Source: Croceibacterium selenioxidans
GTDB taxonomy: Bacteria > Pseudomonadota > Alphaproteobacteria > Sphingomonadales > Sphingomonadaceae
Reading direction: 5' to 3'
DNA length: 64,000 bases
NCBI RefSeq assembly: GCF_018599195.1
Contig: NZ_JAHFVK010000002.1
Coordinates: 434,001-498,000, forward strand
A model generated the notes under the pieces. That model did not search any database and had not been told where the DNA came from. It was given only the letters and a program-made list of their open reading frames with translations. The position numbers and the translations under genes are program-made. Each line of letters starts with the position of its first letter. Position 1 is the stretch's first letter. This document shows positions 42,232 through 64,000 of this stretch, piece after piece.

Positions 42232-43149
42232 TCAACCAACCTCGTTCGCCTTGCGCCGCGTCTCGGCGAAGTTGTCCCGCCGGATTTTCTCGAACGCCAC
42301 GCGCTGCTCGTACCCGGCATCCTGGGGGTACTCTCGGTAGTCCTCCAGGATTTCATCGAACAGCTCTCGCAGTTCTTCCTTGTGATCGGGATGGGTGAAG
42401 ATGTTAGCCCGGTTCTCCTGCACGCCCTCGAGGATGCGCGCGCCGATAACGTCAGGCTCCATGCCGAACTCGTGGATACCCGCCAGCCGCTCCACCGCCG
42501 CGGCGTCCACTGTCTTCATCGCGCCCTTGAGCGCGTCGGGCCGCACGTCGTCGCTGGCGTAGATGTAGCTCTTCACCAGTCCCGGATGCACGACCGAGAC
42601 ACCGATGCCGTACTGGTACATCGAATGACGCAGCGAATAGCTGAGACCGCGCACCGCGAACTTGGCGGTGTTGTAGATGCCCGGCGCGCCACCGGCGATG
42701 AAGCTGGCCATGCTGGCGGTGTTGGTGATGTGCCCGCCCTTGACCTCGCCCGACAGCGCCCGCGCCTTCATGCGCGGCGCGAAGGTCCCGATACCGTTGA
42801 TCACGCCCTGCAGGTTGACTCCGAGCACCCAGTCCCAATCGTCGAACGAGGAATCCTCGATCGTCTGGAAGAGGTTGATCCCGGCGTTGTTGAACAGAAG
42901 GCTGACCGGGCCGAACTCGGCCTCGACCTTGTCGGCAGCCGCCCTGAACCCTTCGCGGTCCATCACGTTGAGCTGGACGCCCATGACCTCGCGATTGTCG
43001 AGCGTGGCCAGCGCGGCGTCGATCGAGTCCTGCCGGATATCGGCGATGGCGACTTTGGCGCCCGCGTTGAGCAGATTGCGGACGATGCCGATGCCAACGC
43101 CATTGGCGCCCCCGGTAACGAAGGCCGTGCGGCCGGCGAATTCGATCAC
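42232..43149 (-). CDS. Short-chain dehydrogenase/reductase
   Basis: A 305-residue classical SDR from a GTG at 43149 (GGAGAG ribosome site upstream). The NAD(P)-binding Thr-Gly-Gly-Ala-Asn-Gly-Val-Gly lies at 12-19, Asn-Asn-Ala-Gly near 87-90, and the catalytic Ser146, Tyr159 and Lys163 are intact (Tyr-Asn-Thr-Ala-Lys). Asp at the end of the second strand (Ile-Ala-Asp-Ile-Arg) favours NAD. Immediately downstream of the two NTF2-like genes on the same strand, so likely one catabolic transcript; an aromatic side-chain alcohol is a plausible substrate. Confidence 0.9.
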   Translation of the reverse strand: MIEFAGRTAFVTGGANGVGIGIVRNLLNAGAKVAIADIRQDSIDAALATLDNREVMGVQLNVMDREGFRAAADKVEAEFGPVSLLFNNAGINLFQTIEDSSFDDWDWVLGVNLQGVINGIGTFAPRMKARALSGEVKGGHITNTASMASFIAGGAPGIYNTAKFAVRGLSYSLRHSMYQYGIGVSVVHPGLVKSYIYASDDVRPDALKGAMKTVDAAAVERLAGIHEFGMEPDVIGARILEGVQENRANIFTHPDHKEELRELFDEILEDYREYPQDAGYEQRVAFEKIRRDNFAETRRKANEVG

Positions 43150-43167
43150 ATCACTCTCCCTTTGTCT

Positions 43168-43190
43168 CCCCTCCCGCTTGCGCAAGGGGG
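43168..43190. repeat. Half copy of the nested palindrome
   Basis: CCCCTCCCGCTTGCG followed by CAAGGGGGA, matching one arm of the element at 42127. It lies in the 42-bp gap between the SDR and the first NTF2-like gene. Confidence 0.5.
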
Positions 43191-43191
43191 A

Positions 43192-43683
43192 TTACTTATT
43201 CTCCATCGCCAGCACGGGATTAACCGAACCGGACTCGCGACCTGCCAGGAACTCGTTGTAGATCTTGCGTCGCTTGAACAGCCAGCGCCCTTCGACGCGG
43301 ACGAGCTCGTCCTCATAGGTCCCGAACGAGGGAGTCGCCGGACGGCCTTCGGGGCCGCCGTTGGTCATTTCCCACCACAGCCCGGTGTTCCAGGCCTGGT
43401 CGCCCTCTATGCGGATGGCTTTCTGGTGGACCAGATGGCGCAGCTTGGCCGGCCTGCCTTGCCAGTCCTTGAACACCTCCGCAATCTTGTCGCGGAAGAT
43501 CATCGCCTCGGCCCGGATCGCCTCCCGGCCTTCGAGCGTGCCCATCGCGTAATCGAGCACGCCGTCCACCGTGAAGCATTCGGCGTAGGCATCGGCGTCA
43601 TGGTAATCCATGGCGAAGAGATAGCGGGCCATGAGGTCCGCTATCTCGGCCCGGTCCCGAGCGTGGTTCGACAGGCTCACCAC
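43192..43683 (-). CDS. NTF2/SnoaL-like protein A (start inside a repeat)
   Basis: A 163-residue NTF2-like protein. The N-terminal helix Arg-Asp-Arg-Ala-Glu-Ile-Ala-Asp-Leu-Met-Ala-Arg-Tyr-Leu-Phe-Ala-Met-Asp-Tyr-His-Asp-Ala-Asp and the sheet region ending Gly-Arg-Trp-Leu-Phe-Lys-Arg-Arg-Lys are nearly parallel to protein B at 43775-44284, so they are paralogues. The only starts are two adjacent GTG codons (43683, 43680) inside a palindromic repeat, so the first six or so residues derive from the repeat. In Novosphingobium and Sphingobium, NTF2-fold proteins act as formaldehyde-releasing lyases on lignin diarylpropanes; this is a candidate. Confidence 0.75.
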   Translation of the reverse strand: MVSLSNHARDRAEIADLMARYLFAMDYHDADAYAECFTVDGVLDYAMGTLEGREAIRAEAMIFRDKIAEVFKDWQGRPAKLRHLVHQKAIRIEGDQAWNTGLWWEMTNGGPEGRPATPSFGTYEDELVRVEGRWLFKRRKIYNEFLAGRESGSVNPVLAMENK

Positions 43684-43770
43684 GAACGGACTTCGCTTAG
43701 CAATGAGCGGATCAATCCGGCCTGAGAGGAATGGATCAAAATGCCCGTTCGTCCTGAGCCTGTCGAAGGA
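43662..43770. repeat. Inverted pair of REP-like palindromes
   Basis: GTGGTTCGACAGGCTCACCA followed by CGAACGG (43662-43689) faces CCCGTTCGTCCTGAGCCTGT followed by CGAAGGA (43744-43770). The copies are inverted to each other, a typical REP doublet arrangement. The first supplies the GTG start of the NTF2-like gene A, and the second lies 5 bp past the stop of gene B. Confidence 0.75.
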
Positions 43771-43774
43771 CCGA

Positions 43775-44284
43775 TCACAGCGCAGCCACCGCGTCCATCG
43801 AGCGGATCGGGTTCTCGGGACCGCTCTCGCGACCGGGAAGGAATTCGTTGAGGATGCGGCGTTCGGTGAACAGCCAGCGGCCGCCGACGCGGGCAAGCTT
43901 GTCCTCGTAGATTCCAAAGGTGCCCATCTTCAGGCTCTTGCCCGGCCCGTCATTGGCCATCTCGAACCACTGGGCTCGGGTCCAGGCCCGGTCACCTTCG
44001 ACGCGAACGGCGGTATGCGCGAGTACGTGGCGCAGGACGGCCGGGTTGCCGTCTTCGTCCTTGTAGTGTTCGCCAATGCGCTTCTTGAAGCCCTTCACCG
44101 TCTCAAGGATGTTGGCCTTTCCGGCGACCCGGCCGCGAGCGAACTCGAATTCCGCATCGTCTGTGAACATCTCGATGAAGCTGTCGAGATCGTTGTAGTC
44201 GAGCGCGAAGAGATAGCGCGCCATCAGGTCCTCGATCTCGGCGCGATCGCGTGCGTAGCTGTCCGAATAATCCTGTGAACTCAT
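43775..44284 (-). CDS. NTF2/SnoaL-like protein B
   Basis: A 169-residue NTF2-like protein with the shared Asp-Arg-Ala-Glu-Ile-Glu-Asp-Leu-Met-Ala-Arg-Tyr-Leu-Phe-Ala-Leu-Asp-Tyr-Asn-Asp helix, Phe-Thr-Asp-Asp-Ala-Glu-Phe-Glu-Phe, a His-rich stretch Leu-Arg-His-Val-Leu-Ala-His-Thr-Ala-Val-Arg, and the C-terminal Gly-Arg-Glu-Ser-Gly-Pro-Glu-Asn-Pro. GGAGAGG precedes the ATG at 44284. It heads the minus-strand group B - A - SDR and is divergent from an MFS transporter gene 150 bp away. A lignin-dimer lyase role, as for protein A, is inference. Confidence 0.82.
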   Translation of the reverse strand: MSSQDYSDSYARDRAEIEDLMARYLFALDYNDLDSFIEMFTDDAEFEFARGRVAGKANILETVKGFKKRIGEHYKDEDGNPAVLRHVLAHTAVRVEGDRAWTRAQWFEMANDGPGKSLKMGTFGIYEDKLARVGGRWLFTERRILNEFLPGRESGPENPIRSMDAVAAL

Positions 44285-44434: not shown

Positions 44435-45859
44435 ATGGCAATCGCGCCAACCGGGCCCGGCCCAATTGGACCCGACGCAGTCAGCGTCGAAACGGGCCCC
44501 ACCGCTGCCACGCAACCCTGGCCGAGCGAGAAGGCCGGGTTCTACGCGCTCTTCGCTGTGGTCTTCGCCACCTTCATCACCTTCCTCGACCAGACCACCT
44601 TCGGACTGCTGGCGGAGAAGATGAAGATCAGCTTCGGCATCTCCGACTTCACGCTCGGCCTGCTGCTGGGGCCCGTGACGGTGGTGGCCTATGTGATCGT
44701 CGGCATCCCGCTCGCCCGCCTGGTCGATATCTTCCCGCGCAAGTTCGTGCTCTCCGCCGGGATCGCGGCGCTCGGCACGATCATGGCGCTGGGCGGTCTG
44801 GCGCAGAACCTGTGGCAACTGGTCTCTACCCGGTTGTTCGTCGGAGCGAGTTCGTCCGCCAACGGACCGGGCTCATACTCGATCCTGGTCGACTACTTCA
44901 AACCGCTGCGCATCCCACTGGTCTTCGCGCTGCTCCAGCTCGGTTACATACTGGGCAGTTCGCTTGGGAACATCCTCGGCGGACGGTTGATCCGCTGGAC
45001 CGATACGCTGGGGGAGACGATCAGCTTCCTCGGCCTGGAGATCTTCAGCTGGCAGCTGGTGCTGATCATGGTCGGCGCCCCGGGCCTGCTCGCGGGCCTG
45101 CTCTGGCTGACGGTCAGGGAACCACCGCGCCGCAGCCCTCCCGCGGCGCGGCAGCTGGTTCCGCCTTCCGCCCCGGCCTGGCGCAAGTTCCTCGCCTTCA
45201 TGGGCCTCGATGCGGCGATTGCGATCTGGCAGCGCAAGTACGTGTTCCTGCCGCTGTTCGTCGCGCTGGCGATGTCCGCGACCGAGAGCCAGGGCCTGCC
45301 GCAATTCCGTGCGCCATTCATCCTGCGCACCTACGAAGGCTGGGATGAAGCCCGGCTCGGCGACTTGCTCGGCACGCTGCTGCTGGTCTCGATGCTGGCC
45401 GGGATTACCGCTGGCGGCGCGTTCGTCACCTGGCTCGGCAAGCGCTACAAGGACGCCAACATCCGCGCGACCGCGATCATCTTCACCTGCACCACCATCG
45501 TCACCATCGCCATGCCGCTGATGCCGACAGGCGAGCTGGCGATCATCTGCATGGCGCTGGGCCTGTTCTTCGGCCTCGCCGGAGCCCCGGCGCAGAACGC
45601 CGCGATCCAGCGCATCGCCCCCAACGAGATGCGCGGACAGGTGACCGCGCTCTACCTGTTCATGTTCACCTTTTTCGGCGCGATGGGCCCGGCGGTGATC
45701 GGTTTCGTCAGCACCTTCGTGGTCGGGGACGAGCAGCAGATCTGGAAGGCGATCCTGATCACCGCGATCATCTTCCTGCCCACCGCCACGGTCTTCATGT
45801 GGCGCGGCATCAAGCCCTATCGCGAGGAAGTGGAGCGGCTCGAGGCGCTGGGTCTGTAG
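44435..45859 (+). CDS. MFS transporter (aromatic compound uptake candidate)
   Basis: A 474-residue major facilitator protein with about 12 membrane helices. A Pro/Gly-rich N terminus is followed by Phe-Leu-Asp-Gln-Thr-Thr-Phe in helix 1 and the loop 2-3 motif Pro-Leu-Ala-Arg-Leu-Val-Asp-Ile-Phe-Pro-Arg-Lys. GGGAGAG precedes the ATG at 44435. The resemblance is to Spinster-like/anion-symporter MFS proteins rather than to drug exporters. Its position between the NTF2-like genes and the aldehyde dehydrogenase operon suggests aromatic acid or dimer import. Confidence 0.85.
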   Translation: MAIAPTGPGPIGPDAVSVETGPTAATQPWPSEKAGFYALFAVVFATFITFLDQTTFGLLAEKMKISFGISDFTLGLLLGPVTVVAYVIVGIPLARLVDIFPRKFVLSAGIAALGTIMALGGLAQNLWQLVSTRLFVGASSSANGPGSYSILVDYFKPLRIPLVFALLQLGYILGSSLGNILGGRLIRWTDTLGETISFLGLEIFSWQLVLIMVGAPGLLAGLLWLTVREPPRRSPPAARQLVPPSAPAWRKFLAFMGLDAAIAIWQRKYVFLPLFVALAMSATESQGLPQFRAPFILRTYEGWDEARLGDLLGTLLLVSMLAGITAGGAFVTWLGKRYKDANIRATAIIFTCTTIVTIAMPLMPTGELAIICMALGLFFGLAGAPAQNAAIQRIAPNEMRGQVTALYLFMFTFFGAMGPAVIGFVSTFVVGDEQQIWKAILITAIIFLPTATVFMWRGIKPYREEVERLEALGL

Positions 45860-45874
45860 AGGTCGCGGCAAAGT

Positions 45875-46152: not shown

Positions 46153-47583
46153 TTGGCCGACTATCCCGCCCTGCACATGATCATCGATGGCGAGAAGGTG
46201 TCCGGCGGCGGCCGGCGCACGTTCGACGTGGTCAACCCCGTCACCGGTGAAGCGATCGGCGCGCTGCCGCTGGCCGAAGCCGGCGATCTCGACCGCGCGC
46301 TCGAAGTCGCGGCGAAGGGCTTCAAGATCTGGCGCAAGTCGAGCCCGCAGGAACGCGCCGCGGTTCTCTCCGGCGCCGCCCGCCTGATGGCCGAGCGCCA
46401 GGAACAGCTCGCCCGCGTCGCCACGATGGAGCAGGGAAAGCCGCTTGCCGAAAGCCGCATCGAAGTGATGATGAACGTCGGCCTGTTCAATTTCTATGCC
46501 GGCGAGTGCTTCCGCATTTACGGGCGCGAGCTGGTCCGTCCCGAAGGCACCCGCTCGACCGTGCGGCACGAGCCGGTCGGCCCGGTCGCGGCCTTCGCGC
46601 CGTGGAACTTCCCCCTCGGCAATCCCGGCCGCAAGCTCGGCGCGCCGATCGCGGCGGGTTGTTCGGTGATCATGAAGGCGGCGGAAGAGACCCCCGCCTC
46701 GGCGCTCGGCGTGCTGCAGTGCTTGCTCGACGCCGGCCTGCCCAAGGAAGTGGCGCAGGCCGTGTTCGGCATTCCCGACGAGGTCAGCCGCCACTTGCTC
46801 GGCAGCCCGGTCATCCGCAAGCTCAGCTTCACCGGTTCGACGGTCGTCGGCAAGCACCTCGCCAAGCTCGCGGCCGATGACATGAAGCGCACCACGATGG
46901 AGCTCGGCGGCCACGGCCCGGTGCTGGTATTCGGCGACTCCGATATCGACAAGGCGCTCGATACCGCAGTCGGTGGCAAGTACCGCAACGCCGGGCAGGT
47001 CTGCGTTTCGCCGACCCGCTTCATCGTCGAAGAGAACGTGTTCGAGAAGTTCCGCGACGGCTTCGTCGAGCGGGCCAAGAAGGTGAAGGTCGGTGACGGC
47101 CTGGTCGAAGGGACGCAGATGGGCCCGATGGCCAACCCGCGCCGGCCCGAAGCGATGGACCGCCTGATCGGCAACGCGCGCGACAAGGGCGCCACGCTTC
47201 ATACCGGTGGTGAACGCCTCGGCAACCAGGGCTACTTCTACGCCCCGTCGGTGCTGTCCGAGATTCCGCTCGACGCCGACATCATGAATGAAGAGCCGTT
47301 CGGCCCGGTCGCCCTGATCAACCCGTTCAAGGGCGAGGAAGAGATGATCGCCGAGGCCAACCGCCTGCCCTACGGCCTCGCGGCTTATGCCTGGACCGGC
47401 GACTACCGCCGCCAGCGCCGCCTCGCGGCCGAGCTCGAGTCCGGCATGATCGGCATCAACAGCCACATGATCGGCGGCGCCGACGCTCCGTTCGGCGGGG
47501 TGAAGTGGTCGGGCCACGGCAGCGAGGACGGCCCCGAAGGCGTGCTCGCCTGCATGGTGCTGAAGGCCGTGCACGAGGGGTAA
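46153..47583 (+). CDS. NAD(P)-dependent aldehyde dehydrogenase (TTG start)
   Basis: A 476-residue ALDH of the succinate-semialdehyde/aromatic aldehyde type. Active-site residues are in place: Asn152 (Pro-Trp-Asn-Phe), Lys175, Glu250 (Glu-Leu-Gly-Gly) and the nucleophile Cys284 (Gly-Gln-Val-Cys). Start is TTG at 46153 with AAGGAG 8 nt upstream; no closer ATG exists. It leads the operon ALDH - phenol oxidase - LigW - reductase (28, 1 and 19 nt gaps), so its substrate is probably an aromatic aldehyde such as vanillin or a 5-formyl derivative. Confidence 0.9.
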   Translation: MADYPALHMIIDGEKVSGGGRRTFDVVNPVTGEAIGALPLAEAGDLDRALEVAAKGFKIWRKSSPQERAAVLSGAARLMAERQEQLARVATMEQGKPLAESRIEVMMNVGLFNFYAGECFRIYGRELVRPEGTRSTVRHEPVGPVAAFAPWNFPLGNPGRKLGAPIAAGCSVIMKAAEETPASALGVLQCLLDAGLPKEVAQAVFGIPDEVSRHLLGSPVIRKLSFTGSTVVGKHLAKLAADDMKRTTMELGGHGPVLVFGDSDIDKALDTAVGGKYRNAGQVCVSPTRFIVEENVFEKFRDGFVERAKKVKVGDGLVEGTQMGPMANPRRPEAMDRLIGNARDKGATLHTGGERLGNQGYFYAPSVLSEIPLDADIMNEEPFGPVALINPFKGEEEMIAEANRLPYGLAAYAWTGDYRRQRRLAAELESGMIGINSHMIGGADAPFGGVKWSGHGSEDGPEGVLACMVLKAVHEG

Positions 47584-47611: not shown

Positions 47612-49177
47612 ATGGACGAACTGACCCTGCCCCCCGGCAGTCTCGCAGGCGCGATCCGTGCCATGCGGGACGCGATCGGGGCGGACAATGTCCTGACCGA
47701 TCCTGCCTCGATGGCCGACCATGGCGATCCCTTCGCGCCTCCCGGTGAGTGGTACCGCCCCGGCGCGGTTCTGCTTCCGGGCAGCGTCGAGGAGGTGCAG
47801 GCGGTGCTGCGCATCGCCAACGAACATGGCACTCCGGTTTGGACCAGCAGCCAGGGCCGCAACAAGGGGTATGGCGGCGGCGCTCCCCGTGTGTCGGGCA
47901 GCTTTGCCCTCTCGCTCCGGCGCATGAACAAGGTGCTGGCGGTCGACGAGGACAATTGCTGGGCCCTTATCGAACCCGGCGTGCGCTTCTTCGACCTCTA
48001 CGACCACTTGCGCGCGATCGGCTCGAAGCTGTGGATGTCGGTGCCGGATCTGGGTGCCGGCAGCGTGATCGGCAACGCGCTCGACCATGGGGTCGGCTAC
48101 ACTCCGCTGGGCGACCATTTCGGCAATCATTGCGGGATGGAAGTCGTGCTCGCCGATGGCGAGGTGCTGCGCACCGGCATGGGCGGGATGAGCAATCCGC
48201 ACGCCTGGCAGGTCTTCCCGCACGGCTGCGGGCCGACGCCGGACGGGCTGTTCACCCAGTCGAATTACGGCGTGGTGACCAAGATGGGCGTGTGGCTGAT
48301 GCCGCCGCCGCAAGTCTACATGCCCGGTTGGCTCACGCTCGACAGCGAGGAGCAGTTCGGCCCGTTCCTCGAAGCGCTGCGCCCGCTGATGATCGACGGC
48401 ACGATCCCCAACCAGCCGATGATCATCAACGCCGTCTGCGCCGCCAGCGCCTTCTGGGGGCGCGAGGAGTGGTACACCGGCAACGACCCCATCCCCGAAG
48501 AGGTGATCGACAGGATCGCCCAGACGCCCGGCTTCGGCCGCTGGGTCATGCGCTTTGCCCTCTACGGCGACGAGCCGGTGGTCGAACACAACCGCGCCAA
48601 AGTGGACGCGGCCCTCGGTTCCATTCCCGGCTGCAACATCACTTATTCCAAGTACGACGGAAGCGCCCTGCCCGACTTCGAGAACCCGCACGAGCGCGTC
48701 CAGGCCGGCATCCCGAGCATGGCGCTCGACCGCATGACCCGCTGGTACGGCGGTGAGCAAGGCGGCCACATCGGCTTCTCCTGCGCCATGCCGATCACCG
48801 GCAATGACGGGACCACGATCCGCGACATGGTCCGCGAGCAGCTCAACGCCGACGGGCTCGACTATTCGGGCGTGTTCATTGTCAGCAAGCGGCACATGAT
48901 CCACGTTGGCCTGGTCGTGTTCGACACCGAGAACGAGCCCCAGGCCCGCGCCGCCTATGCCGCGTGCAAGGCGCTGGTCGGGCCGGCGGCCAAGCTCGGC
49001 TACGGCGAATACCGAAGCCATGTCGACTTCATGGACCTGGTCGCCGACCAATACGACTTCAACAACCACGTCCAGCGGCGCTTCGCCGAGACCATCAAGG
49101 ATGCCCTCGATCCGAACGGCATCCTCTCCCCCGGCAAGCAGGGCATCTGGCCCGCCGCCTATCGAACAGGAAGATGA
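47612..49177 (+). CDS. Eugenol/vanillyl-alcohol-oxidase-type 4-phenol oxidase
   Basis: A 521-residue VAO-family flavoenzyme, colinear with eugenol oxidase. The residues expected for that enzyme are all found: Tyr87 (Asn-Lys-Gly-Tyr-Gly-Gly), the catalytic Asp146 (Pro-Asp-Leu-Gly), His386 in Gly-Gly-His-Ile-Gly-Phe-Ser (expected covalent FAD ligand) and Tyr467-Arg468 (Gly-Glu-Tyr-Arg) for phenolate binding. It oxidises para-substituted phenols such as vanillyl alcohol or 4-alkylphenols with O2 or another acceptor. The His rather than Tyr ligand argues for an oxidase over a p-cresol methylhydroxylase. GGAGAGGAAG precedes the ATG. Confidence 0.9.
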   Translation: MDELTLPPGSLAGAIRAMRDAIGADNVLTDPASMADHGDPFAPPGEWYRPGAVLLPGSVEEVQAVLRIANEHGTPVWTSSQGRNKGYGGGAPRVSGSFALSLRRMNKVLAVDEDNCWALIEPGVRFFDLYDHLRAIGSKLWMSVPDLGAGSVIGNALDHGVGYTPLGDHFGNHCGMEVVLADGEVLRTGMGGMSNPHAWQVFPHGCGPTPDGLFTQSNYGVVTKMGVWLMPPPQVYMPGWLTLDSEEQFGPFLEALRPLMIDGTIPNQPMIINAVCAASAFWGREEWYTGNDPIPEEVIDRIAQTPGFGRWVMRFALYGDEPVVEHNRAKVDAALGSIPGCNITYSKYDGSALPDFENPHERVQAGIPSMALDRMTRWYGGEQGGHIGFSCAMPITGNDGTTIRDMVREQLNADGLDYSGVFIVSKRHMIHVGLVVFDTENEPQARAAYAACKALVGPAAKLGYGEYRSHVDFMDLVADQYDFNNHVQRRFAETIKDALDPNGILSPGKQGIWPAAYRTGR

Positions 49178-49178: not shown

Positions 49179-50234
49179 TTGACTCACGAATTGAAGACCG
49201 GCGGTGACCGCGGTTACCTGCGCATTGCCACCGAAGAAGCCTTCGCCACTCAGGAACAGCTCGACGCGATCATGCGCCTGGTCAAGGAAGGCCGCGCCGA
49301 CAAGGGCACCATGAGCCTGTGGGGCTTCTACGGCACGAGCCCCAGCGAACGCACGACCTTCATCCGCGAACGCCTGCTGGACCTCGGGCCGCTACGCATC
49401 CAGGCTATGGACGAAGCCGGGATCGACAAGGCGGTGCTGGCGCTGACCAGCCCGGGCACCCAGTCGATGCACGACGTCGAAGAAGCCAAGCGCATCGCCC
49501 GCAACGCCAACGACCAGCTCAAGGCCGCCTGCGAGACCTACCCGGATCGCTTCCACGGCATGATCGCCGTCGCCCCGCTCGATCCGGAATGGTCGGCCGA
49601 GGAACTGCGCCGCGGCAAGGAAGAGCTCGGCTTCCACGGCGTGCAGATCAACAGTCACACCCACGGTCACTACCTGGACGAAGACCAGTTCGACCCGATC
49701 CTGCGCGCCTGCGCCGATCTCGACCTGCCGCTCTACATTCACCCGCAGGGCCCGCCCGACGGGATGATCGGCGGCATGGTCGAGGCCGGGCTCGACGGCG
49801 CGGTCTACGGCTTCGGCGTGGAGACCAGCTACCACGCGATGCGCCTGCTCACGACGGGCGTGTTCGATCGCTATCCCAACTTGCAGCTGATGCTCGGCCA
49901 TGGCTGCGAGGGGCTGCCGTTCTGGCTCTATCGCCTGGACTACATGCACAAGGCCGGCATCCGCAGCCAGCGCTACGATCGTCTGAAGCCGCTGCAGCAT
50001 GACCTGTTCCACTACATGCGCAACAACGTGCTGGCGACGAACAGCGGGTTGCCGTTCGGTCCCTCGATCAAGCTGATGATCGAGGTCATGGGGGAAGACC
50101 GCGTGATGTACGCGATGGATTACCCCTATCAATACGTGCCGGACGAAGTACGCTGGATGGACGATCTCGAGATCAGCGACTCCCAGAAGACAAAGTTTTT
50201 CCAGACCAACGCCGAACGCTGGTTCAAGCTCTAG
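49179..50234 (+). CDS. ligW: 5-Carboxyvanillate decarboxylase, LigW type (TTG start)
   Basis: A 351-residue amidohydrolase-superfamily decarboxylase. From a TTG at 49179 (AGGAAG upstream, 1 nt after the oxidase stop), the numbering matches that recalled for characterised LigW: metal and catalytic residues Glu19 (Ala-Thr-Glu-Glu-Ala-Phe), Arg58, His188 (Tyr-Ile-His-Pro), His241 (Leu-Gly-His-Gly) and Asp314 (Tyr-Ala-Met-Asp-Tyr-Pro-Tyr-Gln-Tyr). The whole protein, including the Lys-Thr-Gly-Gly start and Phe-Phe-Gln-Thr-Asn-Ala-Glu-Arg-Trp-Phe-Lys-Leu end, follows LigW closely. The expected reaction is 5-carboxyvanillate to vanillate plus CO2, Mn2+-dependent. A related 2,3-dihydroxybenzoate decarboxylase activity is the alternative. 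Confidence 0.9.
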   Translation: MTHELKTGGDRGYLRIATEEAFATQEQLDAIMRLVKEGRADKGTMSLWGFYGTSPSERTTFIRERLLDLGPLRIQAMDEAGIDKAVLALTSPGTQSMHDVEEAKRIARNANDQLKAACETYPDRFHGMIAVAPLDPEWSAEELRRGKEELGFHGVQINSHTHGHYLDEDQFDPILRACADLDLPLYIHPQGPPDGMIGGMVEAGLDGAVYGFGVETSYHAMRLLTTGVFDRYPNLQLMLGHGCEGLPFWLYRLDYMHKAGIRSQRYDRLKPLQHDLFHYMRNNVLATNSGLPFGPSIKLMIEVMGEDRVMYAMDYPYQYVPDEVRWMDDLEISDSQKTKFFQTNAERWFKL

Positions 50235-50253
50235 GCTGAAGGAGAGGATGCCG

Positions 50254-55709: not shown

Positions 55710-55730
55710 CTTCCTGCTTCCGATCTAACC

Positions 55731-55760: not shown

Positions 55761-55767
55761 GTCATAA

Positions 55768-56229
55768 CTAGAGCACCCGCCACACCCACAGCTTGATGCT
55801 GCTGGCGTAACGCGCGCCCGAGCAGATGAAGATCGACCGGTTCATCCAGTCGTAGGGTCCTTCGGGTGCGATGAATTCCGGTACGGTTCGAAAATAGTAC
55901 TCGGCTGGATCCACGTCTTCGCCGCGGCGCAAACGGTCCATCACCTCTGGCGGACCATGACGCAGACCTTTGTTGCGGATCTGGATTAGCACGCCGTCGT
56001 CAGTCTCAAGAGCATAGATGGCATCGGCCACGGTCACACCATCGGGTCGGGTCAGCTGCCAATCGGCGGAATTGCCCATCAGCTTGCCGCTGATCCTGGG
56101 CCCCTTCACATAACCACCCGCCACGATCGGAATGATGCGCCGCGTGCCGTCGACCACTTTGCCGATCTCTTTCGGAGCCTCCAACTCACCACTCGCTTCA
56201 TAGACAAACTCAAGCTCGGGCTTGATCAT
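55768..56229 (-). CDS. DUF3237 family protein
   Basis: A 153-residue beta-barrel-type protein of DUF3237: Gly-Gly-Tyr-Val-Lys-Gly-Pro-Arg-Ile-Ser-Gly-Lys, Ser-Ala-Asp-Trp-Gln-Leu-Thr-Arg-Pro-Asp-Gly-Val, Glu-Thr-Asp-Asp-Gly-Val-Leu-Ile-Gln-Ile-Arg-Asn-Lys-Gly-Leu-Arg-His and a C-terminal Trp-Met-Asn-Arg-Ser-Ile-Phe-Ile. The function of the family is largely unassigned. The ATG at 56229 follows an AGGAGAGG site. It is divergent from a GMC oxidoreductase with a 101-bp shared promoter, suggesting that they act in one pathway. Confidence 0.85.
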   Translation of the reverse strand: MIKPELEFVYEASGELEAPKEIGKVVDGTRRIIPIVAGGYVKGPRISGKLMGNSADWQLTRPDGVTVADAIYALETDDGVLIQIRNKGLRHGPPEVMDRLRRGEDVDPAEYYFRTVPEFIAPEGPYDWMNRSIFICSGARYASSIKLWVWRVL

Positions 56230-56330: not shown

Positions 56331-57989
56331 ATGGCTGCGGATCTTTACGCAGACTATGTCATCGTCGGAGCGGGCAGCGCGGGGTGCGTGCTGGCGGCCC
56401 GCCTGACGGAAAGCGGGGAGCACAAAGTGGTGTTGCTCGAAGCCGGTGGCGACGACCGGCCGCTGAAGGAACCGAGCCAGTTCATTTCCAACATCATGAT
56501 CCACACGCCGATCGGCTTCGGCAAGACCCTTAACGACCCCAAGGTCAACTGGCTGTACGAGACCGAGGTCGACGAGGGTTCGGGCGGCCGCGCGCACAAG
56601 TGGCCCAAGGGTAAGGTGCTGGGCGGATCGAGCTCGATCAACGGCATGCTCTACGTCCGTGGCCAGTCGGCCGACTATGACGGCTGGGCCCAGATGGGGG
56701 CGCGCGGATGGAGCTGGGACGATGTCCTGCCTTACTTCCGCAAGAGCGAGCATCAGGAGCGGGGCGAGGACGAGTTCCACGGCGCCGACGGCCCGCTCAA
56801 CGTGTCCGACTTCCCCGACGAACATCCGGTCAGCGCTGCGCTGGTCGAAGCGTGCCAGCAGGCGGGCATCCCGTACAAGAAAGACCTCAACGACGGAAAC
56901 CAGGAAGGCTGCAGCTTCTTCCAGATGACTGCCAAGAACGGCCGCCGCCATTCGGCTGCGGTCGCCTATCTTCACCCGGCGATGAAGCGCCCCAACCTCA
57001 CCGTCGAAACCCGGGCAATGACGACGCGGATCATCTTCGATGGCAAGAAGGCCGTCGGCGTCGAGTTCAAGCAGAACGGCGAAACCCGCAAGGTCATGGT
57101 TGGCCGCGAGGTGATCCTGGCTGCCGGCGCGGTGGAAAGCCCCAAACTTCTGGAAATCAGCGGCGTCGGCCAGGGCGCGTTGCTGCAGGAGCTCGGCGTC
57201 AAGGTGGTGCATGAATCGCCGATGGTGGGCGAGAACATGCAGGACCACTACATGATCGGCTGCCAGGCCGCGTTGAAGGAACCGCATCATTCGATCAACC
57301 AGCTGAGCCGCGGCGTGAAGCTGTTAGGAGAGATCGCCAAGTACGGCCTCACCCGCAAAGGCCTCCTCAGCTACGCAGTGGCGCACGGCTGCGCTTTCGT
57401 GAAGACAAGGCCGGAGCTGCAGTTCCCCGATGTGCAGATCCACGTGATGGCCGCGTCGATGGATCTCGAATACCTCAACCAGTATCAGGGCCTGCGGCTA
57501 GACAAGGATCCAGGCATGGCCTCGAACCCGTGCCAAGTGCGTCCGGAATCGCGCGGTTCGATCCACGCCAAGTCGCCCGACGGAACGGTCTGGCCGAAGA
57601 TCGTGCCGAACTACCTGTCGGACCCGATCGACAAGCAGAGCGTGGTCGACCAGCTCAAGCTGATCCGCAAGATCTGGCAGCAGCCGGCGCTCGAGCCCTA
57701 TCTCAAAGAAAAGGGCGATCCGTTCGGCAATACCGACGAGGAAATGCTCGCGTATGCCAAGCTCGCTGGAGGCACGCTCTATCACGCCGTTGGTACCGTC
57801 GCGATGGGTGACGAGCGCTATCCGCTCGACCCGCAGCTGCGAGTGCGGGGGGTCGAAAACCTGCGCGTGATCGACGCATCGGTGATGCCGAAAATCAGCT
57901 CGGGCAACACCAACGCGCCGACGATCATGATCGCCGAGAAAGGCGCCGAAATGGTCCTCGCGGGCGCCAAACAGGCAGTGGCGGCCTAG
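56331..57989 (+). CDS. GMC-family FAD-dependent alcohol oxidoreductase
   Basis: A 552-residue GMC enzyme. The FAD-binding start Val-Gly-Ala-Gly-Ser-Ala-Gly-Cys-Val-Leu-Ala lies within the first 25 residues. Lys-Val-Leu-Gly-Gly-Ser-Ser-Ser-Ile-Asn is the first GMC signature, Ala-Ala-Gly-Ala-Val-Glu-Ser-Pro-Lys-Leu-Leu the second, and Leu-Tyr-His-Ala-Val-Gly-Thr with the Asn-Ala-Pro-Thr tail carries the catalytic His/Asn pair. It oxidises an alcohol to an aldehyde. In sphingomonads GMC enzymes start catabolism of the phenylcoumaran lignin dimer; that role here is inference. GAGAGGAGAG precedes the ATG at 56331. Confidence 0.9.
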   Translation: MAADLYADYVIVGAGSAGCVLAARLTESGEHKVVLLEAGGDDRPLKEPSQFISNIMIHTPIGFGKTLNDPKVNWLYETEVDEGSGGRAHKWPKGKVLGGSSSINGMLYVRGQSADYDGWAQMGARGWSWDDVLPYFRKSEHQERGEDEFHGADGPLNVSDFPDEHPVSAALVEACQQAGIPYKKDLNDGNQEGCSFFQMTAKNGRRHSAAVAYLHPAMKRPNLTVETRAMTTRIIFDGKKAVGVEFKQNGETRKVMVGREVILAAGAVESPKLLEISGVGQGALLQELGVKVVHESPMVGENMQDHYMIGCQAALKEPHHSINQLSRGVKLLGEIAKYGLTRKGLLSYAVAHGCAFVKTRPELQFPDVQIHVMAASMDLEYLNQYQGLRLDKDPGMASNPCQVRPESRGSIHAKSPDGTVWPKIVPNYLSDPIDKQSVVDQLKLIRKIWQQPALEPYLKEKGDPFGNTDEEMLAYAKLAGGTLYHAVGTVAMGDERYPLDPQLRVRGVENLRVIDASVMPKISSGNTNAPTIMIAEKGAEMVLAGAKQAVAA

Positions 57990-58631: not shown

Positions 58632-59846
58632 TCAGTTCTGCGTCGAGGTGATCGCCTTGAGCATCGCCACGGTCTGGGCAAATTCGTCAGGTGGAGGATT
58701 GGGCGGAAGGAAGCTGAGCTTCACGATCACAGTCCGACTTTTCGGATGGACGTAGATCATCTGACCGGCCAGGCCCAAGGCCGCGAACGCGCCGGGCTCT
58801 TCGTCGACTTGCCAGGTCTGGAAACCATAGCCCGGCGGCTGGGCCTGCGGGCCCCTGATCGGGACCGGCAGCATGGTGGACATCTGCGTTACCCAGCCTT
58901 CTGGAAGGACGCGCGTTTGGCCGCGCCTGCCCCCGTCGAGCAGCAACTGACCGAGGCGGCCGAAGTCGCGAAGCGTGGCATTGAAGCCCATGCCGTTGAG
59001 GGCCCGTCCCCGACCCGGGGGTCCATCGGCTATCCAGAAGCCATCGCGTTCGGCCCCGAGCGGTGCCCATATCCGCTCCTGCATTTGCTGCTCAAGTTTC
59101 TGGCCCACCGCTTCTTCCAGCACCCAGCCCAGGACCGCGGTATCAAGCGTCGCGTAGTTGAACGTGCTTCCCGGCTCGGAACGGCGACCGACATCGATCG
59201 CGAAATCGGCAAAGCGCCGTTCGTTGCGGATGATCGCAGACTCGTGAATCCGCCCCGCCAAGCTCGGATTTTCGCCAAAGTCATAACGCTCGTCGATGTC
59301 CGAACCCGACCGCATCTGCAGCAATTGCCGGATGGTCACCCCGTCGTAACCGCCACCTTTGAGCTGCGGAACGTATTTGACTGCCAGATCATCGAGCGAG
59401 CCGATCTCGCCTTTGTCCAGCGCCAGCCCGACCAGCATGGCGGTGAAGGTCTTGGCCATCGAAAACGAGATGAAGGGCGTCGTCTCGTCAGACCGGTTGC
59501 GGTAGTCCTCGAACACGATCCGCCCGTCGCGAATGACGAGTAACGCGTTGGTGAAGGTGTCCTCGGCAAAACGCTCGTAGTCATGCGATTGCCCGCCGAC
59601 ATCGATGTGCGGCAAAGTGAGCGCAGCGCCCGACGGCAGATCCCACACTGGACCCCCACGCTTCACAGGGCGAGATTCGAAGACCTTGTCGGTATCACGG
59701 AAGGTGAAGCTGTTGACCTCCGGATTGAGCAATTGCCAGCGCATGGCGATGACAGCGGGAGAGGGGCCGGCTTTCTCGCTCTGGGCAACAGCCGGACAGG
59801 CCATTGCCAGCACGGCCAAGCTGGCCGCCAACACGCTTCGAGACAT
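58632..59846 (-). CDS. Exported serine hydrolase, class C beta-lactamase fold
   Basis: A 404-residue protein with a signal peptide (cleavage near Ala-Val-Ala-Gln) and the beta-lactamase/transpeptidase-like fold: nucleophile motif Ser-Met-Ala-Lys (SxxK), a Tyr-x-x type second motif in Phe-Asn-Tyr-Ala-Thr, and a late Gly-Leu-Ala-Gly-Gln. Relatives hydrolyse esters or amides, including 6-aminohexanoate dimer hydrolases and esterases EstB. In this setting an esterase for aromatic esters is possible; beta-lactam resistance should not be assumed. The ATG at 59846 begins the signal peptide. Confidence 0.87.
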   Translation of the reverse strand: MSRSVLAASLAVLAMACPAVAQSEKAGPSPAVIAMRWQLLNPEVNSFTFRDTDKVFESRPVKRGGPVWDLPSGAALTLPHIDVGGQSHDYERFAEDTFTNALLVIRDGRIVFEDYRNRSDETTPFISFSMAKTFTAMLVGLALDKGEIGSLDDLAVKYVPQLKGGGYDGVTIRQLLQMRSGSDIDERYDFGENPSLAGRIHESAIIRNERRFADFAIDVGRRSEPGSTFNYATLDTAVLGWVLEEAVGQKLEQQMQERIWAPLGAERDGFWIADGPPGRGRALNGMGFNATLRDFGRLGQLLLDGGRRGQTRVLPEGWVTQMSTMLPVPIRGPQAQPPGYGFQTWQVDEEPGAFAALGLAGQMIYVHPKSRTVIVKLSFLPPNPPPDEFAQTVAMLKAITSTQN

Positions 59847-59920: not shown

Positions 59921-61390
59921 TCAAGCAGCGAGCCCGATTTCCTCACTCGGGGCGAAGTTGCCGTGAAGGCCGAAGCGCAGCTGGATGGGGACCTTGATCG
60001 TGGCGATCGGGCCCTTCTCGATGTCGAGCGCGTCGAATAGCAGCAAGTCGCTGCGATGGTCTTCCAGCCGGTTGCACACCTGCACGATCCAGCCGTCGCC
60101 TTCGGGTGCATCCTTGCTGCGCGGGATGAAGCACGGCTCCTGCAGACTCGAGACCGGCCCGCACCACCAGTGTTGCTCCTTGCCGGTTTCGAGGTCCTTG
60201 AGGAACAGGCAGTTCATCAACAAGCCGCCGGCGCTGCCGCCCTTGAGCTCCACCGGGCGGCGCATGTCCATTTCCAGGAACCAGCCGTAGCGGGTCTGCT
60301 TGCCAGCAAAGCGGTCGTCGATGCGGGGGAACTCGGCCGCCGTGTCGGTCAGCTTTGTGATCGCGTCGAACTCCTCCCCGTTGCTGGCCAGGTCCACCGT
60401 CCAGTCGGACAGGAAGCTCATCGCCTCCATCCCGTTGAACGGCGCACCATGGACGTCGGGGAAGAACGGAAACATGTTATTCTTCGCCTCGCAGGTGAGG
60501 AAGTGGATTTTGGTCCCTTCCTGCCAGGCGTTGAGCACGTGGCTGGCGAAACAGTTGTCGCGCTTGAACCAGCGTATGTCTTCCTGCTTGAGGTCGTCAC
60601 GACGCGGGATCACGCCGAGATAGACCGGCAGCGTGGTGTCGAAGCCGAAGTGCGGCAGGCCTTTCTCCAGTCGTTCCCACGACCCGATCGAGGGCACGAT
60701 GTGGAGGATGAGATAGTCCTCGGTGATCCCGAAGTCGTGCATCATGCAATAGTAGGGGACCTTGAACCACTTCTCGCGGACCAGTTCGCCCTCGGGGCTG
60801 ATTTCGTAATAGGTCACGTCATCGGTGCACAGGCCCGAGGCGGCATAGCCGATGGCGACCATGTTGCCGGTCTTAGGGTCGACCTTCGGGTGAGAGGTAA
60901 AGGTCTCCCCTGTCATCTTGCCGCCGAACTTTTCGAATCCGATCGTCTCCATCGTTGCTGGGTCCATCAACAACGCCGGCGAATCCTCCTTCATCGCCCA
61001 CAGCTTGCCGGCATAGATCCAGGCGTTGGTGTTGGCGGTCGAACGAATCTTCCCCTTCACACTCTCGTCGTCGGTCAGCGGGTTGCGATAGGCGCCGAAC
61101 AGGGCCTTGCCGGCCTCGTTCTCCAGCTTCCACTTGTCGGTCTGCGCCCAGCGCTGGCGGAAGTCGCACTGGCCGTCGTGGAAGTGGAACCGGGTGATCA
61201 TTCCGTCGCCGTTGAAGGAAATGTCGTCCCCCAGGCGCGGCGGGAACTGCGGATCGGGCTGCACACGGTAGAACGCGCCGTCGAGCTCGGGCGGGATCGT
61301 GCCTTCGTGTTGAAGGTCGTTGATGTCGGCTTCGATCCGGCTGGGGGTGTTGAAGCCGGTAAAGCTGGGAGTCTGGGGAAAATGCGACAT
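59921..61390 (-). CDS. Lignostilbene alpha,beta-dioxygenase
   Basis: A 489-residue carotenoid-cleavage-family nonhaem iron dioxygenase. The four iron-binding His are visible at 167 (Ser-His-Pro-Lys), 218 (Met-Met-His-Asp), 284 (Ser-His-Val-Leu-Asn) and 476 (Leu-His-Gly-Asn-Phe). Phe59, Tyr101 and Lys134 fall at the positions I recall for the substrate-binding and catalytic residues of characterised lignostilbene dioxygenases; Lys134 and Tyr101 contact the 4-hydroxyl of the stilbene. This marks cleavage of a 4-hydroxystilbene to two aldehydes rather than carotenoid cleavage. AGAGGACCTA precedes the ATG. It is divergent from a MarR gene, 90 bp apart. Confidence 0.93.
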   Translation of the reverse strand: MSHFPQTPSFTGFNTPSRIEADINDLQHEGTIPPELDGAFYRVQPDPQFPPRLGDDISFNGDGMITRFHFHDGQCDFRQRWAQTDKWKLENEAGKALFGAYRNPLTDDESVKGKIRSTANTNAWIYAGKLWAMKEDSPALLMDPATMETIGFEKFGGKMTGETFTSHPKVDPKTGNMVAIGYAASGLCTDDVTYYEISPEGELVREKWFKVPYYCMMHDFGITEDYLILHIVPSIGSWERLEKGLPHFGFDTTLPVYLGVIPRRDDLKQEDIRWFKRDNCFASHVLNAWQEGTKIHFLTCEAKNNMFPFFPDVHGAPFNGMEAMSFLSDWTVDLASNGEEFDAITKLTDTAAEFPRIDDRFAGKQTRYGWFLEMDMRRPVELKGGSAGGLLMNCLFLKDLETGKEQHWWCGPVSSLQEPCFIPRSKDAPEGDGWIVQVCNRLEDHRSDLLLFDALDIEKGPIATIKVPIQLRFGLHGNFAPSEEIGLAA

Positions 61391-61480
61391 TAGGTCCTCT
61401 CTTATCGCGCGCCGCCTTGTTGTGGGCGATTGTATGCTCCACTAACGATTAGGCAAGGGAAGGGTGAGGATTAGGGGCTA

Positions 61481-61933
61481 GTGCCAACGCTGAAACTGAT
61501 GGATGTCAAATCCCGCGGCCTTGGCGGGCTGGATGGAATTCTCGGCTTCCATCTCCGGCTCGCGCACGGCGCCGTCTATCGACACTTCACTGAAACCTTC
61601 GCCAACCTCGATCTCACGCAAAAACAAGTTTCCGCCTTGTGGCTGGCGGCCGAAGAGCCGGGCATTTCACAGGTCGAGCTGGGCCGGAAGCTCAGCATGG
61701 ATCGGGCGACGACCATGACCATCGTTAACCGCCTGCAGGATCGCGATTTCGTCCGGCGCGAACGGTCGGACAGCGATGGGCGCAAGCAGGCCCTCCACGT
61801 GACGCCCACGGGCCTCGCCGCGCTCGATGAGGCGAAAGTCTGCATCGCGGAGCACGAAAAGTGGCTGAAAGCGCGCTTCACCGCTGCCGAGGTCGAAAAA
61901 CTGGTGGAAATGCTGACGCGAATCCACGAATGA
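61481..61933 (+). CDS. MarR-family transcriptional regulator
   Basis: A 150-residue winged-helix regulator: the recognition region Gln-Val-Glu-Leu-Gly-Arg-Lys-Leu-Ser-Met-Asp-Arg-Ala-Thr-Thr-Met and the wing Asp-Phe-Val-Arg-Arg-Glu-Arg-Ser-Asp-Ser-Asp-Gly-Arg-Lys are typical. The start is GTG at 61481 (AGGGG upstream); an ATG at 61499 is possible. Its position back to back with the lignostilbene dioxygenase gene and upstream of an aromatic acid transporter suggests that it represses both, with an aromatic ligand as inducer. Confidence 0.9.
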   Translation: MPTLKLMDVKSRGLGGLDGILGFHLRLAHGAVYRHFTETFANLDLTQKQVSALWLAAEEPGISQVELGRKLSMDRATTMTIVNRLQDRDFVRRERSDSDGRKQALHVTPTGLAALDEAKVCIAEHEKWLKARFTAAEVEKLVEMLTRIHE

Positions 61934-61963
61934 GATCCTTCTTGGGAGAGAGGAAGATACAAA

Positions 61964-63328
61964 ATGGCAGGTGCCACTGGGGGAACTAATCCCATCCAGG
62001 TGATCGACGACAACCCGATGAGTTTCCGTCAATGGGTCGTCATTGTCCTAATGATTCTGCTTAACGCGCTCGATGGTTTCGACGTTTTGTCCAGCGCCTT
62101 CGCGGCTCCCGGCATTTCCGAGGAGTGGGGCATCCCCCGCTCCGAGCTGGGCATCGTTCTTTCGGCCGAACTCGTCGGCATGGGCTTCGGCTCGCTGATC
62201 CTGGGTGGGGTGGCCGACAAGATCGGCCGCAAGCCGGCCATGTTGCTCTGCCTCGTGGTCATGGCCGTTGGCATGTACATGGCTCACGCCGCCACTGGCG
62301 TTTCTGAGCTGACCATCTGGCGGCTCATCACCGGCCTTGGCATCGGCGGCATGCTCGCCGCGACCAATGCCGTGACCGCCGAAACCTCGAACAAGAAGGA
62401 CCGCAGCCTCGCCATGGCGCTGTACGTGATCGGCTATCCGTTGGGTGGCGTGATCGGCGGTTTCGCCGCGCAGAGCTGGCTGCTGGTCGACTATGACTGG
62501 CGGGCGGTATTCCTGTTCGGCGCCATCGTGACGGCGGTGATGATCCCGTTGGTCATGTTGCTGGTCCCGGAAACCCCCGCCTTCTACGCGGCTCGCCGCC
62601 CCGAAGGCGCGCTCGCCAAGATCAACAAGTCGCTGCGCGCCCTGCGCCAACCGGAGATCGCCGAGCTTCCGCCGGTGCCGGAAACCGTGGCCAAGCCCAA
62701 GGTCACCGATATCCTCTCCAACCCGCGCCTGCGGCCGGTTACTCTGTTGCTGGCGTTCGGCTACATGTTCCACACCCTGACGTTCTACTTCATCCTGAAG
62801 TTTGCGGTTCAGATCGTGCATGACGCCGGCTTTACCCAGCCGGAAGCTGCGAGCACGCTGACTGTCGCCAATATCGGCGGTGCCGTCGGCGGTGCGATCT
62901 TCGGTTTTGCACTCAAGAAATGGGACATCAAGGGACCGACCATCGCTGCGGCCGTGCTCGGTTCGGCCGCGGTGGCTGCGTTTGGCATGGGAAGCGACAC
63001 CCTGTGGGGCTGGCGTATTGCTGCGTTCCTGACGATGTTCTTCCTCAATGCGGCGATCGTGGGTTACTATGCCGCCTTCGCTCGGGGCTTCCCGGCCTAT
63101 GCCCGCGCCACGGGTACGGGCTTTGTGCTCGGCGTTGGCCGGGCCGGTGCGGCAGGCTCGCCCATCATCGCCGGGTTCCTGTTCACGGCGCTCGGCAACG
63201 AGCAACTTCTGACGGTGTCGATCGTCATGTCGCTCGGCGCGATCATTGGCGCTGGCCTGTTGTGGCTGCTGCCGATGCGCGACGCCGATGCGGATCTCGG
63301 GATTTCGACCGCGGAGGCAGCGCGCTAA
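61964..63328 (+). CDS. AAHS-type MFS transporter for aromatic acids
   Basis: A 454-residue, 12-helix major facilitator. The helix 1 motif Leu-Asp-Gly-Phe-Asp (acidic pair needed for proton coupling in PcaK/BenK-type carriers) and the loop 2-3 Gly-Gly-Val-Ala-Asp-Lys-Ile-Gly-Arg-Lys place it in the aromatic acid:H+ symporter group. GGGAGAGAGGAAG precedes the ATG. It lies 30 nt after the MarR gene, so it is co-transcribed with it. Vanillate or 4-hydroxybenzoate-type acids are likely substrates. Confidence 0.9.
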   Translation: MAGATGGTNPIQVIDDNPMSFRQWVVIVLMILLNALDGFDVLSSAFAAPGISEEWGIPRSELGIVLSAELVGMGFGSLILGGVADKIGRKPAMLLCLVVMAVGMYMAHAATGVSELTIWRLITGLGIGGMLAATNAVTAETSNKKDRSLAMALYVIGYPLGGVIGGFAAQSWLLVDYDWRAVFLFGAIVTAVMIPLVMLLVPETPAFYAARRPEGALAKINKSLRALRQPEIAELPPVPETVAKPKVTDILSNPRLRPVTLLLAFGYMFHTLTFYFILKFAVQIVHDAGFTQPEAASTLTVANIGGAVGGAIFGFALKKWDIKGPTIAAAVLGSAAVAAFGMGSDTLWGWRIAAFLTMFFLNAAIVGYYAAFARGFPAYARATGTGFVLGVGRAGAAGSPIIAGFLFTALGNEQLLTVSIVMSLGAIIGAGLLWLLPMRDADADLGISTAEAAR

Positions 63329-63424
63329 GCGCTTCGCCACGGTTGAAATTCAGGCTGGCGCGAGACGGACAGAAGGGCCATGGGCGCCTGAAAGTTCGTC
63401 CCGCCAGCCAGTGAGAGAGTTGCC

Positions 63425-64000
63425 ATGAAGACCCGTGCCGCTGTCGCTTTCGAAGCCAAGAAACCGCTCGAGATCGTCGAGCTCGACCTCGAAGGTCCCA
63501 AGGCCGGCGAAGTTCTGGTCGAGATCATGGCGACGGGCATTTGCCATACCGATGCCTACACCCTCGATGGGCTCGATTCCGAAGGCATCTTCCCCAGCGT
63601 GCTCGGCCACGAAGGCGCCGGCATCGTGCGCGAAGTCGGCGCGGGCGTGACCAGCGTTGTGCCGGGCGACCACGTGATCCCGCTCTACACCCCGGAATGC
63701 CGCAAATGTAAGTCGTGCCTCAGCGGCAAGACCAACCTCTGCACGGCGATCCGCGCCACGCAGGGCAAGGGCCTGATGCCCGACGGCACCACGCGCTTCT
63801 CCTACAAGGGGCAGCCGATCTACCACTACATGGGCTGCTCGACCTTCTCGAACTTCACGGTGCTGCCCGAGATCGCGGTCGCCAAGATTCGCGAAGACGC
63901 GCCGTTCAAGACCAGCTGTTACATCGGCTGCGGCGTGACCACTGGCGTTGGTGCGGTGGTCAACACCGCCAAGGTCCAGGTCGGCGACAACGTAGTCGTG
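63425..64000 (+). CDS. frmA: S-(hydroxymethyl)glutathione dehydrogenase (partial, runs off window)
   Basis: The first 192 codons of a class III zinc alcohol dehydrogenase; the frame is open at the window edge. Visible: the catalytic zinc Cys and His in Gly-Ile-Cys-His-Thr-Asp-Ala and Gly-His-Glu-Gly-Ala-Gly, the structural zinc Cys cluster Glu-Cys-Arg-Lys-Cys-Lys-Ser-Cys with a fourth Cys in Asn-Leu-Cys, and Gly-Cys-Gly-Val-Thr-Thr-Gly. The Thr-Asp-Ala-Tyr-Thr-Leu-Asp-Gly and Thr-Arg-Phe segments are specific to the formaldehyde-detoxifying class. It oxidises the glutathione adduct of formaldehyde, a by-product of O-demethylation and of diarylpropane cleavage. GAGAGAG precedes the ATG. Confidence 0.93.

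Follow-up and report, generated by a model that had tools for sequence, protein, structure and literature searches.

A probable Erythrobacteraceae ortholog of the sphingomonad beta-5 lignin-dimer locus in Croceibacterium selenioxidans

Does a gene cluster of Croceibacterium selenioxidans that brings together stilbene cleavage, the decarboxylase LigW, and a formaldehyde dehydrogenase constitute a new lignin-dimer catabolic locus, or is it a version of a known one? The window analyzed here is a stretch of 64,000 nucleotides (positions 434001-498000 of contig NZ_JAHFVK010000002.1, hereafter C2) from a genome of 3.44 Mb, for which the tool estimated a completeness of 99.98%, and the cluster lies in its last third (Table 1). 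Gene finding and family searches recovered, with strong family support, every gene class listed in the initial annotation. That annotation had regarded the combination as undescribed as a single locus; because Metz et al. (2024, PMC11323797) have already reported the locus and its pathway from Novosphingobium aromaticivorans, this claim cannot be maintained. Judged from sequence, the region is very probably the Erythrobacteraceae ortholog of the sphingomonad beta-5 (phenylcoumaran) lignin-dimer locus.

The published locus spans Saro_0793-0803 (PMC11323797). There, the phenylcoumaran ring is opened by PcfL (Saro_0796), which releases formaldehyde, and LsdD yields vanillin and 5-formylferulate; FerD (Saro_0797) oxidizes 5-formylferulate, and LigW (Saro_0799) converts 5-carboxyferulate to ferulate. 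Locus tags for the two model species are listed in a 2026 review, in which lsdD is Saro_0802 (PMC12997858). This biochemistry agrees with the catabolic logic first proposed for the window (stilbene cleavage, oxidation of a 5-formyl aromatic, decarboxylation by LigW) but not with the 5-carboxyvanillate-type acid, as the intermediates are 5-formylferulate and 5-carboxyferulate and the product is ferulate. In C. selenioxidans, a phenylcoumaran such as dehydrodiconiferyl alcohol would accordingly be converted to a stilbene, LsdD would cleave the stilbene to vanillin and 5-formylferulate, FerD would oxidize the latter to 5-carboxyferulate, and LigW would decarboxylate this acid to ferulate. A MarR protein would repress lsdD until bound by the stilbene, and major facilitator superfamily (MFS) carriers would move the aromatics. 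The LsdD, FerD, and LigW steps are experimental in N. aromaticivorans and are carried over here by orthology, whereas the MarR role is predicted from Saro_0803 and the carrier roles from family.

The genes ferD, ligW, and lsdD all lie within this one locus. LsdD aligns without gaps over 488 residues to chain 5j53 (1034 bits), which we take to be NOV1 of N. aromaticivorans, and matches LSD4 of Sphingobium SYK-6 (6xm6 group) at 988 bits. It contains F59, Y101, K134, S283 (in the FASH context of residues 281-284), and His 167, 218, 284, and 476; in LSD4, F59, Y101, and K134 are named as catalytic and S283 as a contact residue (PMC8191317). We infer that LsdD is a lignostilbene dioxygenase, with cleavage of the stilbene DCA-S to vanillin and 5-formylferulate as its predicted reaction. 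LigW is homologous over its full length to LigW (533 bits) and LigW2 (531 bits) chains of solved structure; its alignment to the former (4inf/4qrn/4qtg, named 5-carboxyvanillate decarboxylase) starts at residue 22 and extends to the end of a chain of 373 residues. For the lower pathway, the genome holds three LigA-family genes (PF07746), and about 7 kb ahead of the window there is a LigM-like gene that shares 52% identity with the gene occupying the ligM position in SYK-6.

A search with LigW in one genome per species found 285 relatives; the gene neighborhoods of the best 80 were compared with flanks of 10 kb, and both flanks were full in 63 of the 80. Presence was called at identity floors of 50-60% for most genes and 80% for FrmA, and at E 1e-6 with no identity floor for PcfL and NTF2 proteins; genes near or beyond the flank ends, chiefly LsdD, MarR, and FrmA, are undercounted. 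The full-flank loci contain FerD in 61 cases, a DUF3237 protein in 47, LsdD in 42, the short-chain dehydrogenase/reductase (SDR) in 40, MarR in 39, and PcfL in 37, followed by relatives of the SnoaL/NTF2-like proteins NTF2a and NTF2b (29), the thiamine diphosphate (ThDP) decarboxylase (28), the NmrA-like protein (19), the glucose-methanol-choline (GMC) oxidoreductase (18), the beta-lactamase-fold serine hydrolase (BLA; 12), the vanillyl-alcohol-oxidase (VAO) type flavoprotein (8), and FrmA (3). Given FerD at 61 and LsdD at 42 of the 63 loci, the association of these genes is not due to chance. The nearest relative fetched, a metagenome-assembled genome named Porphyrobacter sp. (L001), has a LigW 99% identical to that of the window. 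FrmA adjoined the locus in 4 of the 27 cases in which the stretch beyond MFS carrier 3 was visible; because this adjacency is occasional, formaldehyde detoxification is weak as a theme of the locus. Formaldehyde release is likewise not supported as a theme: pcfL is missing from its usual slot, and sequence searches identify NTF2a and NTF2b as neither PcfL nor LdpA. At two other loci (L052 and L065, from 10.0 kb), ligW is directly followed by a ThDP decarboxylase gene (58% and 61%), and the stretches fetched there gave no match to ferD or lsdD, an arrangement hinting at a separate LigW-ThDP pathway.

How, then, would the stilbene be formed? No pcfL was found at the locus, where 293 bases separate the gene for MFS carrier 1 from ferD. 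In the genome as a whole, the PcfL-slot protein of N. subterraneum is best matched by a protein 42% identical to it, which was taken as LdpA because of its 72% identity to SYK-6 LdpA and its position beside a homolog of LdpB (67%). Elsewhere, the genome encodes a DUF3237 protein that shares 84.5% identity with one of the SYK-6 pair at the phcF/phcG position, as well as a GMC protein that shares 54% with the only SYK-6 gene of the phcC/phcD position that was whole in the fetched stretches; an LSD gene lies between the SYK-6 phc-position genes, where lsdB is expected. Published work describes the decarboxylases PinX, PhcF, and PhcG as related to one another, assigns a DUF3237 domain to PinX, and classes PinY and PhcC as GMC-type enzymes (PMC12607616, PMC8191317). 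Ring opening of the SYK-6 type, in which oxidation precedes decarboxylation, has been predicted to be common among Erythrobacteraceae outside the genus Novosphingobium (PMC11323797), and the putative PhcF/G-like and PhcC/D-like genes fit this prediction. Since pcfL is missing from its slot and these genes are present in the genome, stilbene formation would proceed mainly by oxidation of the gamma-alcohol by a GMC enzyme, followed by decarboxylation with ring opening by a DUF3237 protein. Members of both the PhcF/PhcG/PinX and the PhcC/PinY/HpvZ families also occur in the window, as divergent neighbors separated by 101 bases. The window DUF3237 protein is 76-77% identical to that beside SYK-6 lsdD. 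A co-oriented DUF3237 gene follows lsdD within 2.5 kb in 41 of 48 LsdD loci; in the window, the GMC and serine hydrolase genes intervene. Two further neighborhoods of the same genome (C2:175.6-178.2 kb and C2:417.2-423.1 kb) contain NTF2-like, DUF3237, and GMC genes within a few kilobases, which suggests a recurring oxidase-decarboxylase module.

Several observations weigh against this interpretation. The lsdD-linked DUF3237 protein is 34-38% identical to PhcF and PhcG, short of a >50% identity threshold, and it is found with and without pcfL (Fisher p 0.53), so it is no simple marker of one route. For the GMC of the locus, the closest relative is HpvZ, which oxidizes beta-hydroxypropiovanillone (HPV; beta-O-4), and identity to PhcC/D is about 40%, while the five other SYK-6 GMC proteins listed at E 1e-60 are 38-41% identical to it. 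In SYK-6, the phc, hpvZ, and ldp genes were themselves identified, as was the N. subterraneum PcfL, through position, family, and tag order rather than from annotated records. Lastly, the published operator repeat, GCAATA...TATTGC, had no match in the window at spacings of 4-8, and none in 43 lsdD-marR regions, close relatives of N. aromaticivorans included, at spacings of 3-9, although the pattern or spacing may be an unfair one. PMC11837543 describes N. aromaticivorans F199 as without a close hpvZ homolog and names its 39% relative HpvY, which leaves the reading unchanged.

Two other ideas about this step were examined and set aside. An assignment of the lsdD-linked DUF3237 protein as PhcH was considered; PMC8191317 names PhcH a minor contributor to decarboxylation, and none of the sources consulted places the PhcH locus. 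A literature search by locus tag likewise found no mention, in the text it covered, of Saro_0801, SLG_12850, SLG_12780, or SLG_12790. The second idea was a mutual exclusion of PcfL and the locus GMC: of the 61 full-flank loci with FerD, 35 have PcfL but not GMC, 16 have GMC but not PcfL, 2 have both, and 8 have neither (Fisher p 3.8e-7). On a FerD and LigW tree of 62 rows, most independent pairs went opposite ways (about 3-4 versus 1), but a sign test fell far short of significance (median p 0.625 and 0.375), a level that this small number of pairs could scarcely have attained. The pattern largely reflects shared descent, and exclusion is not claimed.

Control of lsdD by the MarR protein is likely. 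The marR gene belongs to the Saro_0803 family and holds the corresponding position, divergent from lsdD with a gap of 90 bases; the Saro_0803 regulator has been studied (PMC10046596). An exact CTAANNNTTAG palindrome occurs at 61442 and in 5 of the 43 lsdD-marR regions, compared with a mean of 0.07 regions in base shuffles. The assignment of control follows from a looser promoter-like element, which reads TTGNNTANTNGTTNG-N6-10-TACAA along the strand of lsdD and is common to the window and 21 of the 43 regions, as a pattern drawn post hoc and without a shuffled control.

The alternative that survives best is a mixed catabolic island, in which a beta-5 core (ferD-ligW-lsdD) is accompanied by partly independent modules: the HpvZ-like GMC and a ligN/O-like SDR for beta-O-4 fragments, the VAO-type flavoprotein for 4-alkylphenols, and the ThDP decarboxylase for aroylformates. 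The VAO, ThDP, GMC, BLA, and NmrA genes come and go among the full-flank loci while FerD stays, and L001 is without the VAO gene. By tag order, the SDR slot corresponds to ligO/ligN (Saro_0793/0794), which encode C-alpha dehydrogenases, so that it, like the GMC, matches a beta-O-4 gene. Against this, the tight packing of ferD, VAO, ligW, NmrA, and MFS carrier 2 (gaps of 28, 1, 13, and 59 bases) suggests that they form one transcript. We give a mixed island slightly less than an even chance, and it is compatible with the beta-5 assignment rather than exclusive of it.

A second alternative, which we consider rather unlikely, is that NTF2a and NTF2b form the stilbene as a third LdpA/PcfL-like subfamily of cofactorless lyases, which would open the phenylcoumaran, or a different dimer, and release formaldehyde for the neighboring FrmA to remove. 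The two proteins are tandem paralogs (51% identical), and relatives of them are found in the locus in 31 of the 80 loci, as a pair in 8. A profile comparison links them to LdpA/PcfL (probability 96.5, E 8.4e-10, 129 columns), with thin profiles on both sides (numbers of effective sequences, Neff, 2.3 and 2.5), and aligns His86 and Asp29 of the NTF2 proteins with the His and the Asp, respectively, of LdpA/PcfL. Both residues are invariant in the 27 aligned rows, and the His86-aligned residue corresponds, by alignment offset, to H97, which is mutated in the NaLdpA H97Q structure in the PDB (8abu). The Asp at the LdpA-aligned position presumably has a role in this fold. In addition, NTF2b adjoins MFS carrier 1, near the usual pcfL slot, and its structural model (predicted local distance difference test 94.3) aligns with SpLdpA (8abv) at Z 14.5, with a root-mean-square deviation of 3.8 over 152 residues. 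In the fold search, though, SpLdpA was row 48 of 50, behind other NTF2 proteins at Z 15-17, and the result describes an ordinary NTF2 fold with no function singled out. Single-sequence searches with NTF2a and NTF2b did not find the LdpA structures at E 0.001, nor were the two among the eight matches at E 0.001 of the N. subterraneum PcfL-slot protein in their own genome, and they fall below the >50% identity published as the criterion for PcfL homologs. They are also no plain replacement of PcfL, because PcfL and NTF2a/b occur together in 11 of the 61 FerD-bearing full-flank loci.

By these comparisons, NTF2a/b are a separate subfamily that retains the His and Asp positions of LdpA, a placement that makes a cofactorless lyase role plausible. 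A fuller proposal would add to the cofactorless quinone-methide lyases of LdpA/PcfL type a third subfamily, so far undescribed, which belongs to the beta-5 locus of Erythrobacteraceae and of SYK-6-like Sphingobium and acts on a lignin dimer alone or alongside the GMC and DUF3237 route to the stilbene that LsdD cleaves; we consider this proposal, too, rather unlikely. A REP-like (repetitive extragenic palindromic) element lies between the two genes; a 24-base stretch of it matches 18 places in the genome with at most 2 mismatches and none in a reversed control. In L001 and L002, the start of the downstream NTF2 gene overlaps the stop of the upstream one (GTGA/ATGA), so the element separates what is otherwise a coupled pair, and the nearest NTF2a start seen is a GTG inside the repeat. 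Elsewhere in the genome (C2:652362-652859) is a 57% paralog of NTF2b with a signal-peptide-like N-terminus, adjoining what looks like a PQQ (pyrroloquinoline quinone)/cytochrome c alcohol dehydrogenase (both by eye). In SYK-6 (C1:4.09 Mb), a PcfL/LdpA-like protein, 45% identical to the N. subterraneum PcfL-slot protein, is followed by an SDR and a flavoprotein that resembles VAO by eye.

That LigW mainly serves the 5-5 (5,5'-dehydrodivanillate, DDVA) pathway by decarboxylating 5-carboxyvanillate, its neighborhood being incidental, is highly improbable, because FerD at 61 and LsdD at 42 of the 63 full-flank LigW loci favor a beta-5 role.

The features of the locus are collected in Table 1. A 500-base stretch (55268-55767) between the PilZ-like and DUF3237 genes has no called gene. 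Far from the locus, two small minus-strand open reading frames at 8824-9548 have, by eye, the look of a MazE/MazF-type toxin-antitoxin pair, in a stretch of lower GC content (0.54 in 8-10 kb).

Table 1. Features of the putative beta-5 locus, in window coordinates. The open reading frame starts of SDR, MFS carriers 1 and 2, LigW, DUF3237, GMC, NTF2a, and NTF2b were shifted inwards by the analyst's choice.
Feature	Position	Strand	Basis or remark
SDR	42232-43149	-	family search; 73% to SDR at the equivalent place in N. subterraneum (L063:3510-4430)
NTF2a, SnoaL/NTF2-like	43192-43683	-	51% to NTF2b; assumed start GTG at 43683, frame open further up
REP-like palindromic element between NTF2b and NTF2a	43667-43767		arms 43667-43689 and 43745-43767
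NTF2b, SnoaL/NTF2-like	43775-44284	-	family search
MFS carrier 1	44435-45859	+	family search
FerD-type aldehyde dehydrogenase	46153-47583	+	82% to N. subterraneum, 79% to SYK-6 locus protein
VAO/eugenol-oxidase-type flavoprotein	47612-49177	+	between ferD and ligW
LigW, predicted 5-carboxyvanillate/5-carboxyferulate decarboxylase	49179-50234	+	homology to solved LigW/LigW2
NmrA-like NAD(P)-binding protein	50248-51111	+	absent from initial annotation
MFS carrier 2	51171-52802	+	family search
ThDP decarboxylase, benzoylformate decarboxylase family	53153-54715	+	NF005485, 652 bits vs cut-off 493
PilZ-like protein, weak match	54719-55267		absent from initial annotation
DUF3237 protein, PhcF/PhcG/PinX decarboxylase family	55768-56229	-	148 bits vs cut-off 24
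GMC oxidoreductase, HpvZ-like	56331-57989	+	71-72% to SYK-6 locus GMC (hpvZ, SLG_12830, by tag order)
Class-C-beta-lactamase-fold serine hydrolase (BLA)	58632-59846	-	absent from initial annotation
LsdD lignostilbene-alpha,beta-dioxygenase	59921-61390	-	NF053778, 880 bits vs cut-off 800
Divergent lsdD-marR promoter region	61391-61480		promoter-like element on lsdD strand
MarR regulator, Saro_0803 family	61481-61933	+	NF053777, 237 bits vs cut-off 200
MFS carrier 3	61964-63328	+	nearest the aromatic acid/H+ symport family, below that cut-off; 60% to N. subterraneum, 78% to SYK-6 copy
FrmA/FdhA glutathione-dependent formaldehyde dehydrogenase	63425-64000	+	cut by window end; complete in genome, 370 aa

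The order of the shared genes is the same as in the loci of SYK-6 (L037) and N. subterraneum (L063). The latter stands in for N. aromaticivorans, as its LigW and LsdD look near-identical to the solved N. aromaticivorans chains, and on this basis ferD, ligW, lsdD, the MarR gene, an SDR gene, three MFS genes, and a DUF3237 gene are in equal order in N. aromaticivorans and the window. Compared with N. aromaticivorans, the window is without pcfL in its slot, a second SDR gene, and a 224-aa gene before ligW, and adds the NTF2a/b, VAO, NmrA-like, ThDP, PilZ-like, GMC, and serine hydrolase genes; its FrmA gene adjoins the locus, whereas FdhA of N. aromaticivorans is Saro_0874 (PMC11323797). NTF2a/b share the NTF2 fold and the His and Asp positions with the LdpA/PcfL gamma-formaldehyde lyases but are shorter. 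If NTF2a/b or the lsdD-linked DUF3237 protein do make stilbenes, there would be more single-enzyme routes that open C-C-linked lignin dimers. The corresponding SYK-6 region is ferD-ligW2-hpvZ-lsdD (SLG_12800-12860 by tag order), and the 21 kb fetched there contain no match to the SDR, VAO, NmrA-like, or ThDP genes of the window. The SYK-6 region has one NTF2 protein (44%) where the window has two, and its GMC gene precedes the DUF3237 gene, with a luciferase-like gene (by eye) between them, instead of being its divergent neighbor. Otherwise, NTF2-like, MFS, FerD, LigW2, MFS, GMC, DUF3237, LsdD, MarR, and MFS genes of SYK-6 all have counterparts in the window. The locus is already described in kind, and the published beta-5 locus emerges as an arrangement that sphingomonads have widely kept, with a stilbene-forming step that differs among species.

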